Positions 6,866 through 34,797 of a stretch of DNA of 34,797 nt are shown piece by piece (the stretch's first letter is position 1; the number at the start of each line of letters is the position of its first letter). The translations under genes were made by a program, and so were the position numbers. Under the pieces are notes generated by a model, which saw nothing but the letters and a program-made list of their open reading frames with translations, was not told where the DNA came from and did no database searches. Source of the DNA: an uncultured Eubacteriales bacterium (lineage in GTDB: Bacteria; Bacillota_I; Bacilli_A; RF39; UBA660); assembly GCA_900320735.1 (NCBI GenBank), contig ONTJ01000010.1, positions 1 through 34,797 on the forward strand. The letters are read 5' to 3'.

Positions 6866-7286
6866 TTGTAAACAATTTCTCCGCTATATCGCTAAAATTA
6901 TCTATGTTACTATTAAAGAAGTTTTCAAATTCATTTTCAGACCATATTTCAAGCCTATCATTAACACCTACAATTACACATTCTTTTTGTAATTTTGCAT
7001 AATCAATAAGGTTATTAACTATGTTAACTCTACCATTTTTATCAAGTTCACATTCAGTGGCTCCCGATAAGAACATTCTCATGAATGTACGGGCATCTTT
7101 TGAAGTAAAAGGAAGTTCTTTTAGTTTAGTTATAATCTTATTCCATTCATCAATAGAATAAACAAATAAGCATTGTTCAATACCTCTTGTAATAACAAAT
7201 TTTTCTCCTAATTCAAATCTAAACTTAGACGGAATTATTAATCTTCCTTTTTCATCAATATTATGATGAAATTCTCCCATCATCAT
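6855..7286 (-). CDS. mraZ: Transcriptional regulator MraZ
   Basis: DNA-binding AbrB-like protein made of two SpoVT/AbrB-type half-domains; it controls the dcw cluster in other bacteria. The N-terminal MGEFHHNIDEKGRLIIPSKFR is diagnostic, and the second half has SGATECELDKNGRVNI. The start is an ATG in a triple ATG; 7286 gives MMMGEF, matching the family, with GGGGGA about 5 nt upstream. The frame extends to a TTG at 7301, but that would put the ribosome binding site inside the gene. First gene of the operon. A promoter and three TGG(G/A)N repeats spaced 10 bp lie immediately upstream, so it probably autoregulates. About 143 aa. Confidence 0.95.
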   Translation of the reverse strand: MMMGEFHHNIDEKGRLIIPSKFRFELGEKFVITRGIEQCLFVYSIDEWNKIITKLKELPFTSKDARTFMRMFLSGATECELDKNGRVNIVNNLIDYAKLQKECVIVGVNDRLEIWSENEFENFFNSNIDNFSDIAEKLFTNAC

Positions 7287-7293
7287 AGACATC

Positions 7294-7319
7294 CCCCACA
7301 ATCATCCACTTTGTCCCAC
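7294..7319 (-). promoter_or_regulatory. MraZ operator: three 10-bp-spaced TGGGN-type repeats
   Basis: On the minus strand GTGGGACAAA, GTGGATGATT and GTGGGGGATG follow one another with exact 10-bp periodicity (TGGGN rc at 7314-7318, variant TGGAT at 7304-7308, TGGGG at 7294-7298). Known MraZ sites are tandem TGGGN repeats with 5-nt spacers. The last repeat coincides with the mraZ ribosome binding site and the array lies downstream of the predicted start point. Confidence 0.8.
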
Positions 7320-7330
7320 TGATTAAATAT

Positions 7331-7359
7331 ATTATACTATTTCAACTAAAAGTTGTCCA
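7331..7359 (-). promoter_or_regulatory. mraZ operon promoter
   Basis: TGGACA (rc of 7354-7359), 17-nt spacer, TATAAT (rc of 7331-7336): a near-consensus SigA-type promoter. The predicted start point is about 5 nt ahead of the MraZ repeat array. Confidence 0.85.
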
Positions 7360-7384
7360 TATTATTCACAAAAAAAGAAAAAAA

Positions 7385-7408
7385 AAAGAATAGTTTACAC
7401 TATTCTTT
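7385..7408 (-). terminator. Intrinsic terminator of the second pilin-like gene
   Basis: A 10-bp stem (AAAGAATAGT with ACTATTCTTT), 4-nt loop, then a long T tract on the minus strand. It lies 7 nt past the stop at 7416. Confidence 0.9.
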
Positions 7409-7415
7409 ACAATTA

Positions 7416-7829
7416 TTAATTTGTCTTTATTGAACATCCACCAGTTGCAGTACATTGAAGTGTTGTAGTCATACCACTAAATTGACCACCACTAACTCCT
7501 GTAATTACAAATTCATATGGTGATGTAGTTGAATTACAATTTACTGTTACATCTCCATAATCGGCAATTGTCTTTATTATTGCATCAGTATTAACGCTTG
7601 TTCCACAAGCTGCATCTAAAGTTGTAAATGTTCCCTCTGCCATTCCTGTGTTTGCTAATGCTGTATTAAGTTCAATTGCATCTTCAATTAGACCAACTGA
7701 CTCATCCCATGCTTTATTTCTTGAACTATTAATAACATTTAATATTTGTGGTACCGCTATTACCATTATAATTGCTAGTATTACTATTACTGCTAGCAAT
7801 TCTATTAGTGTAAATCCTTTTTTATTCAT
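7416..7829 (-). CDS. Type IV pilin-like/pseudopilin protein (copy 2)
   Basis: A 137-aa prepilin. MNKKG precedes the processing site G5|F6, then FTLIE with Glu at mature position 5 and a long hydrophobic helix (LLAVIVILAIIMVIAVPQI). The rest is a small globular domain with four Cys (CGTSVN, VNCNS, LQCTATGGC) that could form two disulfides outside the cell. The first about 35 residues nearly match those of the gene just upstream, while the globular halves differ, so this looks like a tandem duplication. Its ribosome binding site is AAGGGAGAG. A terminator separates the two copies, so this one depends on read-through or an unseen promoter. No assembly ATPase, platform protein or prepilin peptidase is in the window, so pilus, competence or secretion use is undetermined. 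Confidence 0.88.
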   Translation of the reverse strand: MNKKGFTLIELLAVIVILAIIMVIAVPQILNVINSSRNKAWDESVGLIEDAIELNTALANTGMAEGTFTTLDAACGTSVNTDAIIKTIADYGDVTVNCNSTTSPYEFVITGVSGGQFSGMTTTLQCTATGGCSIKTN

Positions 7830-29797: not shown

Positions 29798-31963
29798 TTA
29801 TAAAGTAATTGGATTAATATCTATACTAATATCTATCTTCCTATTATCTTTTTCTAATTTCATTACATCTGTTAATATTTCTTTTATTCTATCTTTATCT
29901 CTATATTTAATCATTATCTGGAAATAATAAATATTATTAATTTTTAAAATATTAGTTGGTGATGGTCCTAAGGCTATCATTTCCTTAGATAAATTAGGCT
30001 TAATGTAATTATATATTTTTTGTGATTCAGCTTTCACATCATTATAATCTTTACTTCCTATTTTTATAAGTGATATAAAATAATATGGAGGGTAACTTAA
30101 TTTTTTTCTTATCTTCATTTCTTTATTATAAAATCCAATATAATCATGATTTTTAGCAAGTAAAATACTATAATTATCTGGATTAAATGTTTGTATAATT
30201 ACTTTCCCTTCAATATTTGATCTCCCCGCTCTACCTGAAACTTGAGATAGCATATGATAAGTGTGTTCATTACTTCTAAAATCTGGAATATTAAGTAGAG
30301 TATCCGCATTTATTATGCCTACTAAGCTAACAAGAGGAAAATCAAGCCCCTTTGCTATCATTTGGGTACCAACTAAAATATCATATTCATGGTTCATAAA
30401 AGAATTAATTATTTTATCGTGTGAACCTTTCTTACTTGTAGTATCTATATCCATTCTGATAACTCTCGCATCAAATAATTTATTTAATTCTTCCTCTATT
30501 TTTTCAGTACCTAATCCAAAATTTTTAAGTCCATCACTCTTACAATATGGACATATTTTTAATACTTTTTGGGCATATCCGCAATAGTGGCATCTATTCA
30601 AATCACTGTTTTTATGATAAGTGAGTGTTATATCACAATTAGGGCATTTAATAACACTACCACAATTACTACACATTTGATATGAAGAATAACCTCTTTT
30701 ATTTAAAAATAATATTATTTGCTCATTTCTGGCTAATGCTTCTTTTATATTTTCAACTAATAGATCTGAAAAAATTGTATTACCTTTTTTTATTTGATAT
30801 TTCATATCAACAATCTCAACATTTGGTAAGCTTGCATTGTTTGCTCTCTTTGCAAGAGAAACTAACTCATAATATCCTTTATCAGCTCTAGCATAGCTTT
30901 CTATAGTGGGTGTTGCACTTCCTAATATCACTTTTGCATTATGATATTTAGCTCTTTTTATTGCTACATCTATAGCATTATATTTAGGATTATGCTCTTG
31001 CTTATATGACGATGATTGCTCCTCATCAATTATAATAATACCTATATTTGAAAGAGGGGCAAATATAGCACTTCTTGCACCTATTACTATAGAAACTTCC
31101 CCTCTTTTTATTTTTCTATATTCATCATATTTTTCACTATCAGAAAGACCACTATGCAAAACTGCTATTTTTGATGAAAAATGTTTTTGAAACCTACTTA
31201 TTATTTGAGGAGTTAAACTTATTTCAGGTACAAGTACAATTGCAGATTTATTATTATCCAATTGTTCTTTTATTAAATGCATATATATTTCAGTTTTACC
31301 AGAGCCTGTTATCCCATGTAATAATATGACATCTTTATTACTGTTTTTTATTTTAACGAATGCACTTTGTTGATATTCATTTAATTTGAGTAAAGGCTCA
31401 CACATACCACCACTATTTATTCTATACTTTTCCTCTTTTATTATTTCAACAATATTTTTATCAACTAGTGATCTTACTAAAGAAGAATTATATTTCTTTT
31501 TAAGTGACATATCATTTTTTAGTAGTTCCTGCACAATTTCTACCTGTTTTTTTGCTTTTGAATTATTAATGAATTCATAGGCTAACTGAGTATTTTTAAT
31601 TTTTATATAATCAACATATTTTTCTTTTATATTGTTTTTATATTTAGCTTTATACCCATTTGGAAGCATTGCTTGATATATTGATATTAAATTGCAAAAC
31701 AATTCTTCCTTCATACATTTACCCAAATCTAAAAGTTCTTCATTCAATATAGGACTATCATCTACTACTGATATTATTTCCTTCAAATCATAATCAGAAG
31801 AACCTTTTATTTGCATTATAAATCCTTCCAAAATTTTATTTCCAAAAGGTATAAGTACTCTCTTTCCTAATTGAATATCTTTTTCTAAAATATGAGGAAC
31901 TACATAATCAAATGTTTTTTCAATTTTTCCCATAGATATCTCAACAAGAACACTAACTATCAT
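29798..31963 (-). CDS. priA: Primosomal protein N' (replication restart helicase PriA)
   Basis: 721 aa. DEXH helicase that reloads the replisome at stalled forks. N-terminal DNA-binding domain (FDYVVPHILEKDIQLGKRVLIPFG); Walker A GITGSGKT (217-224); Walker B IIIIDEEQ (313-316); a zinc-binding region with CSNC, CPNC, CHYC and CPYC; and the helicase motifs GLGTEKIEEEL, MIAKGLDFPLV and SGRAGR. The Walker B motif ends in Gln instead of the usual His of DEEH. AAAAGGAGGAATTATT precedes the ATG. Single gene with no coaBC, def or fmt next to it. Confidence 0.96.
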   Translation of the reverse strand: MIVSVLVEISMGKIEKTFDYVVPHILEKDIQLGKRVLIPFGNKILEGFIMQIKGSSDYDLKEIISVVDDSPILNEELLDLGKCMKEELFCNLISIYQAMLPNGYKAKYKNNIKEKYVDYIKIKNTQLAYEFINNSKAKKQVEIVQELLKNDMSLKKKYNSSLVRSLVDKNIVEIIKEEKYRINSGGMCEPLLKLNEYQQSAFVKIKNSNKDVILLHGITGSGKTEIYMHLIKEQLDNNKSAIVLVPEISLTPQIISRFQKHFSSKIAVLHSGLSDSEKYDEYRKIKRGEVSIVIGARSAIFAPLSNIGIIIIDEEQSSSYKQEHNPKYNAIDVAIKRAKYHNAKVILGSATPTIESYARADKGYYELVSLAKRANNASLPNVEIVDMKYQIKKGNTIFSDLLVENIKEALARNEQIILFLNKRGYSSYQMCSNCGSVIKCPNCDITLTYHKNSDLNRCHYCGYAQKVLKICPYCKSDGLKNFGLGTEKIEEELNKLFDARVIRMDIDTTSKKGSHDKIINSFMNHEYDILVGTQMIAKGLDFPLVSLVGIINADTLLNIPDFRSNEHTYHMLSQVSGRAGRSNIEGKVIIQTFNPDNYSILLAKNHDYIGFYNKEMKIRKKLSYPPYYFISLIKIGSKDYNDVKAESQKIYNYIKPNLSKEMIALGPSPTNILKINNIYYFQIMIKYRDKDRIKEILTDVMKLEKDNRKIDISIDINPITL

Positions 31964-31994
31964 AATAATTCCTCCTTTTATATTATTTTAACAT

Positions 31995-32023
31995 AAAAAA
32001 AGATAATTATAATTATCTTTTTT
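31995..32023 (-). terminator. Intrinsic terminator of the small membrane gene
   Basis: AAAAAAGATAATT repeats as its reverse complement around a short loop, a perfect palindrome with a T run on either strand. It includes the stop at 32022-32024. Confidence 0.8.
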
Positions 32024-32258
32024 ATGCATATAATCTAGCCACAAGAATTGCACCTAATATTGAATTAAGTATTGATAATACTAAACCAACAATGCTTAAT
32101 ACTAAACCAGCTGTTGTATTTTTTTCAGCTTTATTTTTAATATTTAATACTATTCCAATTATTCCTAATATCCATCCAGAGATAGCTATTAAAAGACCGC
32201 ATGGTATAGATAAAATTCCAAGCACTAAACCAGCTGAATATGTTTCTTTCTTTTCCAT
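32022..32258 (-). CDS. Small DUF4190-like membrane protein
   Basis: 78 aa. Two hydrophobic segments (SAGLVLGILSIPCGLLIAISGWILGIIGIVL and TTAGLVLSIVGLVLSILNSILGAILVARL) separated by a Lys/Asn loop, each starting with an AGLVLGI/AGLVLSI motif as in DUF4190 proteins. Function unknown. AGGAGG precedes the ATG. Own promoter and terminator. Confidence 0.82.
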   Translation of the reverse strand: MEKKETYSAGLVLGILSIPCGLLIAISGWILGIIGIVLNIKNKAEKNTTAGLVLSIVGLVLSILNSILGAILVARLYA

Positions 32259-32280
32259 TTTTACCTCCTATTACAATACA

Positions 32281-32309
32281 AGTATATAACATTTTATAAT
32301 TATAATCAA
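32281..32309 (-). promoter_or_regulatory. Promoter of the DUF4190-like gene
   Basis: TTGATT (rc of 32304-32309), 17-nt spacer, TATACT (rc of 32281-32286). Confidence 0.72.
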
Positions 32310-32319
32310 TAAAAAAGAT

Positions 32320-32340
32320 AAAAGTTATTAATTAACTTTT
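32320..32340 (-). terminator. Probable terminator of the large surface-protein gene
   Basis: An 8-bp stem (AAAAGTTA with TAACTTTT), 5-nt loop and interrupted T tract (TTTTATCTTTTTT) on the minus strand. It includes the stop at 32328-32330. Confidence 0.65.
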
Positions 32341-34523
32341 ACCTTTCTTGATTGATTTGCATATACCCAGTCTCCACCAGGATTTTTATCAAACCATTTA
32401 CTTTCAATTTTAGTCTGTGTTGTTTTTACTTTATATCTATATAACCTTCTTGTTTCAATATCATATGTATATTCTCCAAGTTCAGATTGACTATCAACCC
32501 ATCTACCTAAATCAACATATCCTGAAGTAGTGTTTACTTTATGTTCTCCAGTATATTCGTAACCTCTTGGTGATGTAATTGATTCAGTCCAAATTGTATC
32601 TGCTACATATCTTTCTTTATTGTTATATTTATATTTATATTGTTTTTTAGTTATTATACTATATGTATAGTCACCTAAGGCACCTTTACTTGTAACCCAT
32701 TTATCAAATTTTTCATATTTTATTTCAGTCATTGTTCTTGAATTACCAGTATATTCATAACCACTTGGTGATGTTTTTGAATCTGTCCATTTTGTATCTA
32801 CTACATATTTTTCTTTATTATTATGCTTATATCTATATTGCTTTTTAGTTATTACATTATATGTATAATCCCCCAAAGCACCTTTATTTGTAAGCCATTT
32901 ATTTAATTTTTCATATCTAGTTACTTTGTTTTCTCTTGTTTCACCAGTATATTCATAACCGCTTGGTGATGTTTTTGAATCTGTCCATTTTGTGTCTACT
33001 ACATATTTTTGTCTGTTATTAATTTTATAATTATATTCATATTTTACAATTGTATAACCATTTTTTACATATTCATCTGCATCATATACAACTTTTTCAT
33101 CAGTAGAATAACTTTCACTTGTTGAATATGTTCTATACATATATTGATATTCTGTATTTGTTACTATTTCATATACACGATAGTAATATACTCTTATTGT
33201 TGATGAAGTACAACTTGTTTTACATGGTACATCATCATAATATAAGAATTCATAATATCTACTTCCATTAGATGTTAATGGTGTAGTTGATTCATAAGAA
33301 TTATATAATAATCTTTTATCTGTAGATGACTTTTTATTATAAGCATCAGACCATTGTTTACTAGATGTATCAGCTGGTTTAGATGTTCTCCATGTTGTGT
33401 CTTTTTCCCATTCAGACCAAGTTCCTATGGTCTTTTTAACTGTTTTTCTTACAGTATATCTTGTACCTAATAATACAACTTTATCATTAGTTTTATATTT
33501 TGTAGATTGATATCCTGTCTCACTCCAACCATCTTTATAACCATATTTTACATGTTTATATTGTGTCTTGTTTTCAGTAATTTTCTTTTGACCTGTATAT
33601 AATGTTCTTGTATGAGCTATTTTAAGTATATCAGTTTCTTTTTTAACTTCTTCTGTCCATTTTGTATCTGTTGTCCAGTTATCTTTATAACCATATTTTA
33701 CATGTTTATATTCTGTCTTGTTTTCAGTAATTTTCTTTTGACCTGTATATAATGTTCTTGTATCTGCTAATTTATAAGTATCAGTTATTGGTCGTATTTC
33801 CTCTGTCCAATTTGTATCTGTTGTCCAGTTATCTTTATAACCATATTTTATATGCTTGTATATACTTGTTCCTGAATTTACTTTTTTCTTACCTGTATAT
33901 TGTAATTTAGTATCAACTAATTTAACAGTATCAGTTTCTTTTTGTTTATTTGTTGTCCAATTTCCCAATACCCAATCTGTATTAGTTATTGTTCTAGTAT
34001 ATAAATATTGTAATTTATATTTATCATCTGTTGTATTTGTATTATCTTTTATAATTGTTACTTTACCAGTAGTTTCATCTGTTTTTACTTCTTTAACACA
34101 TGAATTATCTGGACAAAAATCGTAACATCCAATAGGTTCTATTATATAATTTGTTTCAGAACCACATTTTAAATTTACTAAAAGTTCATATTCTGTTTTC
34201 TTTTTAGTAACTTTTACATATGATTTTTCTAAATCACATTCATTACCATTTTTATCAGTAAATGGTAAAATTAATTTTTTGTCTAGCATTTGCTTTAATG
34301 TTAGTTTTGAAGAATCACCTTCATTTTGTGGCATTCTTTCTTTAGTAAAGTAATTTTCAGCCGCATCCTTCATTGTTTGAACATTATCATTAAATATTCT
34401 ATTATAAATTGGTGTTAAATTAGGTATTGGAAATATTAATGTTATTAAAAATACAAATAATAATATTAAAAATATCTTTATTATTAAATCCCTAATAAAA
34501 CCTGATTTACTTCTAGTTTCCAT
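32328..34523 (-). CDS. Repeat-rich cell-surface protein
   Basis: 731 aa, no named family. N-terminal membrane helix (about 10-33). A first globular part (40-143) has KLTLKQMLDKKLILPFTDKNG, then CDLEKSYVKVTKK and VNLKCGS, reminiscent of pilin-type globular domains. Then repeat family A with period exactly 50 residues (YKDNWTTDT at 229 and 279, diverged YKDGWSETG at 329; LYTGQKKITENKT in each). A middle region has a Cys pair (CKTSC, 434-438). Repeat family B has period exactly 66 (KYVVDTKWTDSKTSPSGYEYTG at 506, 572 and 638, plus a partial copy at 703). Trp, Tyr, Thr and Lys are abundant. No sortase motif. GGGGGA precedes the ATG. Likely exported and anchored at the N-terminus. Confidence 0.88.
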   Translation of the reverse strand: METRSKSGFIRDLIIKIFLILLFVFLITLIFPIPNLTPIYNRIFNDNVQTMKDAAENYFTKERMPQNEGDSSKLTLKQMLDKKLILPFTDKNGNECDLEKSYVKVTKKKTEYELLVNLKCGSETNYIIEPIGCYDFCPDNSCVKEVKTDETTGKVTIIKDNTNTTDDKYKLQYLYTRTITNTDWVLGNWTTNKQKETDTVKLVDTKLQYTGKKKVNSGTSIYKHIKYGYKDNWTTDTNWTEEIRPITDTYKLADTRTLYTGQKKITENKTEYKHVKYGYKDNWTTDTKWTEEVKKETDILKIAHTRTLYTGQKKITENKTQYKHVKYGYKDGWSETGYQSTKYKTNDKVVLLGTRYTVRKTVKKTIGTWSEWEKDTTWRTSKPADTSSKQWSDAYNKKSSTDKRLLYNSYESTTPLTSNGSRYYEFLYYDDVPCKTSCTSSTIRVYYYRVYEIVTNTEYQYMYRTYSTSESYSTDEKVVYDADEYVKNGYTIVKYEYNYKINNRQKYVVDTKWTDSKTSPSGYEYTGETRENKVTRYEKLNKWLTNKGALGDYTYNVITKKQYRYKHNNKEKYVVDTKWTDSKTSPSGYEYTGNSRTMTEIKYEKFDKWVTSKGALGDYTYSIITKKQYKYKYNNKERYVADTIWTESITSPRGYEYTGEHKVNTTSGYVDLGRWVDSQSELGEYTYDIETRRLYRYKVKTTQTKIESKWFDKNPGGDWVYANQSRKVKVN
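32391..33014 (-). repeat. 66-residue (198-bp) tandem repeat B
   Basis: Three full copies and one partial copy within the surface protein. Units begin KYVVDTKWTDSK, KYVVDTKWTDSK and RYVADTIWTESI, with exactly 66 residues between starts, and the final diverged unit begins KIESKWFDKNP. DNA similarity between the first two units is high. Confidence 0.88.
33495..33965 (-). repeat. 50-residue (150-bp) tandem repeat A
   Basis: Copies start near residues 188, 238 and 288 of the surface protein, with a diverged continuation after 329. The KHVKYGYKDNWTTDT and TRTLYTGQKKITENKT blocks recur at exactly 150-bp spacing and are nearly identical at DNA level between copies 2 and 3. Confidence 0.85.
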
Positions 34524-34559
34524 ATAAAACTTCCCCCTTCATTTGAAACGACGTGCATT

Positions 34560-34588
34560 ATATTAACACAACTGACCTATTTTGTCAA
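34560..34588 (-). promoter_or_regulatory. Promoter of the surface-protein gene
   Basis: Consensus TTGACA (rc of 34583-34588), 17-nt spacer, TGT-TAATAT extended -10 (rc of 34560-34565). An overlapping TATAAT at 34557-34562 would need a 20-nt spacer. Confidence 0.7.
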
Positions 34589-34670
34589 ATTTTTTATGGC
34601 TCATTATATATAAAAAGTACCACTCTTTCAAAATTAAATATGTGTAATATATATATGTATCTGATTTATC

Positions 34671-34757
34671 AAAAAAAGAACGGCCAAAAAGCAGTTCTTT
34701 ATAATCATATGGTGCGCCAGTTGAATACGTTTAGAAATATATATAAGGTTAATTTCT
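34671..34757 (-). ncRNA. Candidate small RNA, about 85 nt
   Basis: A minus-strand unit with its own promoter and intrinsic terminator and no open reading frame with a ribosome binding site. From about 34757 the RNA would have a 5' hairpin (TAGAAAT pairing with ATTTCTA), a single-stranded middle containing ACTGGCGCACCATATG, and a 3' terminator hairpin ending in T7. I do not recognise it as a known riboswitch or RNA family. It could be a free regulatory RNA, or a premature-termination leader for the surface-protein gene. Confidence 0.5.
34675..34700 (-). terminator. Intrinsic terminator of the candidate small RNA
   Basis: A 7-bp stem (AAAGAAC with GTTCTTT), 12-nt loop with a possible inner GC/GC pairing, and T7 tail on the minus strand. 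Confidence 0.75.
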
Positions 34758-34763
34758 ATAAAG

Positions 34764-34792
34764 ATTATATCAAATAATTATGAAAAATCAAA
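34764..34792 (-). promoter_or_regulatory. Promoter of the candidate small RNA
   Basis: TTTGAT (rc of 34787-34792), 17-nt spacer, TGA-TATAAT extended -10 (rc of 34764-34769). It lies 5 nt from the window edge, so upstream context is unseen. Confidence 0.65.
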
Positions 34793-34797
34793 ATACT

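Follow-up and report, generated by a model that had tools for sequence, protein, structure and literature searches.

The stretch of DNA analysed here (the window) is one entire contig of 34,797 bases, ONTJ01000010.1, from an uncultured Eubacteriales bacterium (GTDB lineage Bacteria; Bacillota_I; Bacilli_A; RF39; UBA660) with a fragmented genome assembly (797 kb, 37 contigs, completeness 72%). Near one terminus, on the minus strand and upstream of a gene for a surface protein, lies a short unit made up of a promoter-like sequence, a hairpin, a GC-rich patch and a terminator-like hairpin. Comparison with related genomes shows that this promoter-hairpin unit is very probably the conserved right end found on integrative elements and on small gene cassettes, all inserted directly behind a CCA, the same CCA that closes tRNA and transfer-messenger RNA (tmRNA) genes at their left junctions. 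The terminus of the contig lies 39 nt upstream of the conserved block, and the gene upstream of the unit is therefore out of sight.

Read along the minus strand, the unit begins with a -35-like hexamer TTGATT (34786-34791), picked up by a consensus scan alone in a region that shows no conservation between copies in a comparison of 36 clusters. The extended -10 element TGaTATAAT (34764-34772) has 10 of 12 consensus matches and a position that is fixed in other copies. The conserved block, TAGAAATTAACC...CAACTGGCGCACCA up to the junction CCA, occupies 34710-34758 and scores 67.3 bits (E 1.0e-14) against a family model, R1, a value obtained partly by construction because the window is one of the 14 sequences behind the model. 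These opening 49 nt of the unit (34758-34710, TAGAAATTAACC...GCGCACCA) are a member of the family block. Within it are a 5' hairpin TAGAAAT/ATTTCTA (34730-34758; family consensus GAAAUU/AAUUUC), identified by folding and an alignment of 46 copies, and the GC-rich patch ACTGGCGCACC, which terminates in GCGCACCA. Comparison of the copies and of the left junctions identifies the junction CCA (34710-34712) as the counterpart of the 3' CCA of the target tRNA. The post-junction stretch (34675-34709) consists of TATGATTATA and a mismatched hairpin (34700-34675) found by folding, and the T7 tract of this terminator-like hairpin lies at 34671-34677. A hybrid short transcript of about 86 nt (34671-34757) is predicted from the conserved -10 position and the hairpin with its T tract.

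The promoter, 5' stem, GC-rich patch and terminator-like hairpin with seven T's named in the initial annotation are all present by scan, fold and sequence. As to its statement that the unit holds no credible open reading frame (ORF), no minus-strand ORF of at least 20 amino acids crosses the whole unit, though a 24-amino-acid minus-strand ORF (34708-34634) overlaps the 3' half and a GTG-started ORF of 74 amino acids on the opposite strand (34553-34777) covers most of it. The fold of a 97-nt stretch of the unit has a minimum free energy of -17.4 kcal/mol (z -3.0), and none of 200 shuffles was equally stable. Promoter-like matches are not enriched in positions 30000-34797 (34 against a shuffle mean of 40.5), and since such matches are as common in shuffled sequence, the lone match in the window proved nothing alone. 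Strict terminator scans miss the hairpin because of a 1x1 mismatch. There were no Rfam matches in the window, where no family reaches its gathering threshold; the best sub-threshold match in 34520-34797 has 24.2 bits against a threshold of 54 and lies on the opposite strand. The unit is raised above chance because it is conserved in other genomes.

A search with the 87-nt RNA against 386 genomes of the same GTDB family gave 16 places whose alignment starts at the first base and extends over 43-65 nt. Thirteen places compared side by side share a TATAAT-like sequence, about 7 nt and TAGAAATTAACCTTAATAAAAATTTCCAAACGTGTACCACTATGGCACCA, after which the sequences diverge. Model R1 was built from the window and 13 of the 16 places, which therefore match by construction, and gave 62 matches at E<=6.7e-7; at E<=0.01, 61 of the 386 genomes are hit. 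After removal of 19 duplicates, 93 model rows represent 74 distinct copies, so that the unit, which had been described as an orphan, belongs in its conserved part to the right end of a mobile element found many times over. One of 49 matches (L099) was dropped as the same locus as L129, and three of the 74 copies (L137, the second copy in L152 and L176) were set aside for lack of a CCA-like end, leaving 71. Longer stretches around the model-R1 copies were taken at 40 places. The general layout of the right end is TGnTATAAT, about 5-7 nt and then TAGAAATTAACC...GCACCA.

In wider samples, 46 of 288 genomes of the order and 9 of 395 of the class have a match (E<=1e-5), all within the same GTDB family; the make-up of the non-matching genomes in these samples was seen only in small part. 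A pattern search of a species-genome collection gave 43 stretches whose titles name Bacilli, Mollicutes, Tenericutes, Mycoplasmatota, Erysipelotrichaceae or simply bacterium, with one that names Clostridia. Searches of plasmids and phages by DNA similarity gave short matches only, with no record covering 80% of the query, and neither the window core nor the family pattern was matched exactly in viral contigs. A 17-nt stretch TTATATATATTTCTAAA common to four genomes of the genus did not extend further and was taken as chance.

The right end stops at the CCA. In 94 pairs of copies with the same upstream sequence, identity is 0.77-0.96 per ten-base block before the junction and 0.93 at the last base of CCA, and it drops to 0.47 over the first ten bases past CCA and to 0.30-0.38 farther on. 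CCA ends 60 of the 71 copies with a located CCA-like end; the junction reads CACCA in 53 of the 71 and has other CCA-like ends in the remainder, in place of the GTT core of integrons. Of all parts of the block, the one that holds the patch varies most. What was annotated as a GC-rich patch corresponds to the junction ending in CCA, at which recombination would take place.

A small cassette encoding the toxin-antitoxin pair YefM/YoeB displays the mobility of these units most clearly. It measures about 708 bp and was found in 12 contexts (656-661 nt from the left boundary, as set by script, to the start of the right end). In the 66 pairs of copies the median identity is 0.88 inside the cassette (0.66-1.00) but only 0.33 in the left flank (0.16-0.46) and 0.36 in the right flank (0.15-0.74). 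The copies were picked by the presence of GTGGAC in the 50 nt that precede the right end; L127 has no left CCA and was given a fixed, unverified length of 658 nt, and the boundary in L113 was set 3 nt early. Both YoeB and PhdYeFM pass the Pfam cut-off in L118. To the left of the cassette stand, among others, tRNA-Thr, tRNA-Leu, tRNA-Arg, tRNA-Phe or a further right end, with some neighbours unassigned, and L140 has a tandem arrangement with a single cassette of this kind between two right ends 706 nt apart.

At the left junctions the sequence reads tRNA...CACCA followed by GATTGATnnnnnnCTCGAAC..., TTGGGAAATCTGTTCGAAC... or TAGGGAAATTAGTCGAAC..., and the left ends have the form CCA-N12-14-TCGAAC, often with a hairpin and then T's. 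The left boundary of the 71 copies is a tRNA in 18, another right end in 1 and CACCA plus the left-end motif in 9, of which 3 are script artefacts with negative positions. In the loci examined the commonest targets are tRNA-Thr and tRNA-Leu, and tmRNA (junctions in L130, L176, L198, L200 and L211) and the CCA of a resident right end are used as well; insertion behind the latter gives tandem arrays. The pattern CACCAN{11,15}TCGAAC has 33 exact matches in eight genomes of the genus and 1 for the reversed control; 30 of these places were read and comprise 11 tRNA ends, 3 tmRNA ends, 2 coding-like stretches and 14 apparent right ends of different types. Among distinct tRNA and tmRNA genes with encoded CCA, the left-end motif follows directly in 35 of 93 (14 Thr, 7 Leu, 5 tmRNA, 2 Phe, 2 Arg and one each of five others), a proportion that holds for loci picked for carrying the family and is no genome-wide rate. 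TCGAAC starts at +13, +14 and +15 in 7, 17 and 11 of the 35, and GTTCRA is found at -24 in all of them. The two motifs appear to be inverted about a point inside CCA.

In the larger members of the family the left end is followed directly by an ORF of 90 amino acids (ORF90), a large serine recombinase and the relaxase MobV, all oriented like the right end (L114, L115, L130, L173, L176 and L196), and MobV homologues together with ORF90 and the recombinase were found by tblastn in all of these except L130. In L130 itself the recombinase has the domains Resolvase (PF00239, 125.6 bits) and then Recombinase (PF07508, 68.8 bits), both over the cut-off, and the relaxase passes the NCBIfam cut-off for MobV and the Pfam cut-off for Mob_Pre. 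Seven left ends of the type LE3 were listed, and the recombinase is open in L130 and L136. Homologues of ORF90 (e.g. L169:7495-7767) form a conserved protein of about 90 amino acids between left end and serine recombinase, with a confident predicted fold (predicted local distance difference test 86.7). The protein has no Pfam or NCBIfam match, weak matches to PHROG families of unknown function and no solved fold at E<=0.001, and is a candidate directionality factor or regulator. In having their own integrase, a relaxase and defined ends with site-specific insertion, several of the larger relatives agree with integrative and mobilizable elements (IMEs). The position of the serine recombinase and the geometry of the sites suggest that it is also the enzyme that moves the cassettes.

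The promoter is part of the conserved right end. When the copies were clustered by upstream sequence, leaving out six of the 71 with less than 50 nt upstream, 36 representatives of 65 copies have T-14 in 33, G-13 in 22, T-11 in 33, A-10 in 33, T-9 in 31, A-8 in 32 and T-6 in 34, and TGnTATAAT stands at a constant distance ahead of TAGAAATT. A stricter clustering (60% identity, -10 region excluded) gives 27, 17, 27, 27, 25, 26 and 28 of 30 clusters for the same positions, and clusterings made without the -10 region (30-37 clusters) give the same picture. In the YefM/YoeB cassette the -35 hexamer overlaps the stop codon of the toxin; together with the lack of conservation in the -35 region, this means that the functional right end seems to start at -10. 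A terminator-like hairpin is found within 110 nt past CCA in 39 of the 71 copies, not counting the mismatched hairpin of the window, and in 12 of 710 shuffles. A promoter-driven short transcript is thus a well-supported prediction, and many copies should yield an RNA of about 100 nt with its 5' half from the right end and its 3' half from foreign DNA. Of the small-RNA unit proposed in the initial annotation, the short transcript with its conserved -10 is supported, but not the lone small-RNA gene; the conserved part is the end of a mobile element and the 3' part comes from the DNA of the insertion site.

The covariation check that had been suggested for the unit gave a mixed result. In 46 distinct copies, aligned without identical blocks and without copies that are not 50 nt long (the window excepted), helix 1 is 97.5% paired, but its paired changes are all G-U/U-G and none is on both sides. 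In helix 2, 73.4% of the cells are paired and three pairs are changed on both sides, a figure for which the shuffle control is weak because the sequences are related. Mutual information across the block shows no clear helix. A structure of the right end at the RNA level is therefore possible. A tRNA-like T-arm in the right end was considered and dropped, as it fits the loop UUCAACU of the window and not the commonest copies.

These observations can be combined into a model in which the serine recombinase would join the right and left ends of the element (attP) to the 3' end of a tRNA gene (attB), with the crossover within CCA. The half-sites would be the inverted GTTCRA of the tRNA T-loop at -24 and TCGAAC of the left end at +13 to +15, which would account for the many tRNAs used as targets. 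The promoter of the right end would fire outward over the junction and produce a short CCA-containing RNA that stops at the next terminator. In an excised circle or a tandem array the same promoter would read into the left-end leader of the operon of ORF90 and recombinase, and its likeliest role may be to supply or regulate integrase expression after excision. The RNA could plausibly function as a leader of the integrase operon in the circle or as a mimic of a tRNA 3' end. The window contains one of these right ends ahead of the surface-protein gene, and the remainder of the element is lost at the contig end. In its fullest form the model would be one of tRNA-anchored, integron-like cassettes whose serine recombinase recognizes T-loop and CCA as universal features of tRNAs and of tmRNA. 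Every cassette of this type would finish in a promoter-driven small RNA mimicking the tRNA 3' end; it would receive the next insertion and, in the circle, act as the leader that turns on ORF90 and integrase, via antitermination in the LE3 lineage. This combination is speculative and on the whole doubtful.

Several observations weigh against insertion at CCA by a serine recombinase as the explanation of the unit. The window itself shows no left end, gene or tRNA because the contig ends, the left end is unseen in 43 of the 71 copies, some of them owing to short contigs, and the identity between same-upstream pairs falls to 0.57-0.70 already before the junction, at -9 to -7, -5 and -4. GTTCRA at -24 is true of any tRNA and is no evidence by itself, and the left-end motif could partly be the ordinary tRNA terminator of the clade. 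Behind the tmRNA of the window's own genome (L239, G000:C35) come, in this order, a TTCGAAC hairpin resembling a left end and a sigma-70 gene; the hairpin may be an isolated left end or just the usual terminator of the clade. The TAGAAATT block is missing from other right-end types in the genus, as is, judged by eye, a TATAAT at the corresponding place, and not every such element therefore needs the promoter and RNA. As for the recombinase, it has no matches in the window's own genome (72% complete), the zinc ribbon in L130 reaches 18.3 bits and stays under the cut-off of 25.3, and among the LE3 left ends it is missing in L134, L144 and L151, frame-broken in L115 and fragmented in L128. In L119 a tyrosine integrase (7128-7700, minus strand; Phage_integrase 96.4 bits, over the cut-off) points at a right end lying about 130 nt from it, which would fit use of this site by an element of another kind. 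The short ORF beside L118 has no match.

Among the other explanations, the right end might act as a cis leader with an antiterminator: in the circle, the right-end box GAAAUUAACCUU would pair with AAGGUUAAUUUC of the LE3 terminator, and integrase would be made only when the element is free. A terminator-like hairpin precedes ORF90 in the left-end types that were read, and the box GAAATTAACCTT is complementary to the 5' arm and loop of the LE3 terminator. The comparison covered the eight stretches in which an LE3 box precedes a right end; there the 12-nt boxes pair 12/12 in five and 11/12 in two, and the natural junction in L160 also pairs 12/12. By fixed-offset count L151 pairs only 7/12, the minimum-energy fold of the natural L160 junction retains the terminator, and inspection by eye shows no box of this kind in left-end types 1 and 2. 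The LE3 copies are moreover closely related, which makes their agreement not independent, and the presence of both ends in one element is suggested by their order alone. Such a switch is conceivable but rather unlikely.

The promoter might instead merely restore transcription to tRNAs or genes that have been severed from their own promoter by the insertion. This would suit the insertions inside tRNA clusters and the terminator-like hairpins of the left ends, but with a hairpin in 39 of the 71 copies many transcripts would end before any gene, and restoration is an unlikely sole role. The mover could also be a tyrosine integrase, as one abuts the right end in L119 and tRNA genes are the classic targets of such enzymes (PMC4383910). 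The sequence shared at the junctions is only about 5-7 nt, and it is ORF90 and the serine recombinase that sit directly behind the left ends of the larger elements; a tyrosine enzyme as the general mover has little probability.

A stand-alone gene for a trans-acting small RNA, with the single-stranded GC-rich patch pairing with target mRNAs, would account for a conserved promoter of its own, a conserved 5' hairpin and a terminator-like hairpin. The copies travel with different cassettes, identity breaks at the terminal CCA and the 3' part varies, so the whole RNA is not one conserved unit; the patch falls in the least conserved part of the block, no Rfam family exceeds its threshold and no convincing copy precedes the surface-protein gene in seven relatives, which together make this reading improbable. 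That a promoter-like and a hairpin-like match have arisen by chance in AT-rich DNA, a doubt already raised for the promoter in the initial annotation and in keeping with lone promoter matches being as frequent in shuffles, has a negligible probability given a -10 element conserved over 30-37 upstream clusters.

The surface-protein gene (32328-34523, minus strand) encodes a repeat-rich protein of 731 amino acids without Pfam match that is present in all eight genomes of the genus searched. The gene has a promoter of its own, similar to that of the orthologues that were read, whose upstream sequence differs, and it requires no link to the unit. The initial annotation had noted the unit's place upstream of this gene on the same strand, and this arrangement was not recovered in the relatives: in none of the seven other genomes of the genus does the region ahead of the orthologue (221 nt in G002, about 2 kb in each of the other six) hold a convincing right end (best 14.8 bits, E 0.043) or a tRNA. 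An empty insertion site for the window element was not found, the only 3'-flank match opened in the genus (L039) being coding-like by eye and without tRNA. The end of the window has no exact overlap of 15-60 nt with the contig that carries the genome's own tmRNA, and that stretch has no convincing right end. The sequence after CCA in the window, TATGATTATAAAGAACTGC..., could be what remains of a left end from a neighbouring element, or else the terminator that belonged to the interrupted target; by eye it resembles the left-end motif N11-15 TCGAAC, yet it does not match it.

Right ends of other types with the same CCA junction but without the TAGAAATT block were observed at L204, L205, L208, L209, L210, L213, L222, L224 and L225, for example AAAAGTTGTAGATA...TCGCACCA and AAAAGTTGTTGTACTTCTTC...GGGCACCA, and the tRNA-linked system is therefore larger than the family in the window. 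In L134 the gap between tRNA-Leu and tRNA-Ser contains about 190 nt with a left-end-like hairpin and promoter-like sequence within a cluster of tRNA genes, as though a replacement promoter had arrived with a tiny insert. Several contigs (the window, G260:C1, G067:C51, G112:C9, G260:C14, G090:C15 and others) stop tens to a few hundred bases from a right end. Assembly seems to break at such repeated or variable sites.

The arrangement shares features with several known systems. Integron cassettes are small mobile units with the gene first and a 3' recombination site (attC) with a GTT core, and they form arrays. The cassettes described here are likewise small units with a conserved 3' end in arrays, but they have a GCACCA junction at tRNA ends, a candidate serine recombinase and a promoter at each site of the window's type. 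Tycheposons are tRNA-anchored integrative elements with mobile cargo, a tyrosine recombinase and a partial tRNA, whereas the end found here is a block unrelated to tRNA that finishes in CCA.

The closest precedent is the ssrA islands of Dehalococcoides with their serine recombinase DsiB (McMurdie et al. 2011, PMC3146451), as described in the part of that paper considered here. They also have a serine recombinase beside one end, the tRNA-like 3' part of tmRNA as target, and tandem islands of which some lack the integration module. The present elements differ by the CCA junction, the many tRNAs used, the shared stretch of about 5-7 nt, a right end with promoter and conserved block, and MobV, which is not among the six module genes named there for ssrA islands. 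In the available portions of two other papers, serine recombinases at tRNA genes are stated to be unknown (PMC4383910) or rare (PMC3218068). The latter describes the actinomycete integrative and conjugative elements of Mycobacterium (tRNA-Leu) and the phage phiRSM1 (tRNA-Ser), which target tRNA genes with serine recombinases but use one tRNA species each, and for which that portion mentions no cassette arrays or right-end promoter. IMEs and their decayed derivatives, the cis-mobilizable elements (CIMEs), resemble the present family in having integrase and relaxase without transfer apparatus, and in decayed partners with att sites that stack in tandem; IMEs with serine recombinases have very short direct repeats (PMC5704250, PMC5357655). 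Most of these lie in protein genes, and the portions of the two papers covered describe no cassettes of two genes and about 700 bp that carry a promoter at one end. As far as searches of the open-access literature show, the combination of many tRNA targets at CCA, tiny cassettes and a promoter-bearing right end predicted to yield RNA is new.

The right end offers a simple sequence tag by which these elements can be located in uncultured Bacilli, several of whose contigs break at it. The family of serine-recombinase elements and very small cassettes to which it belongs uses many tRNA and tmRNA 3' ends at CCA, which is common to all mature tRNAs. This raises the testable questions of whether a serine recombinase might read a universal feature of tRNA, and whether a short RNA from the attachment site might sense excision.
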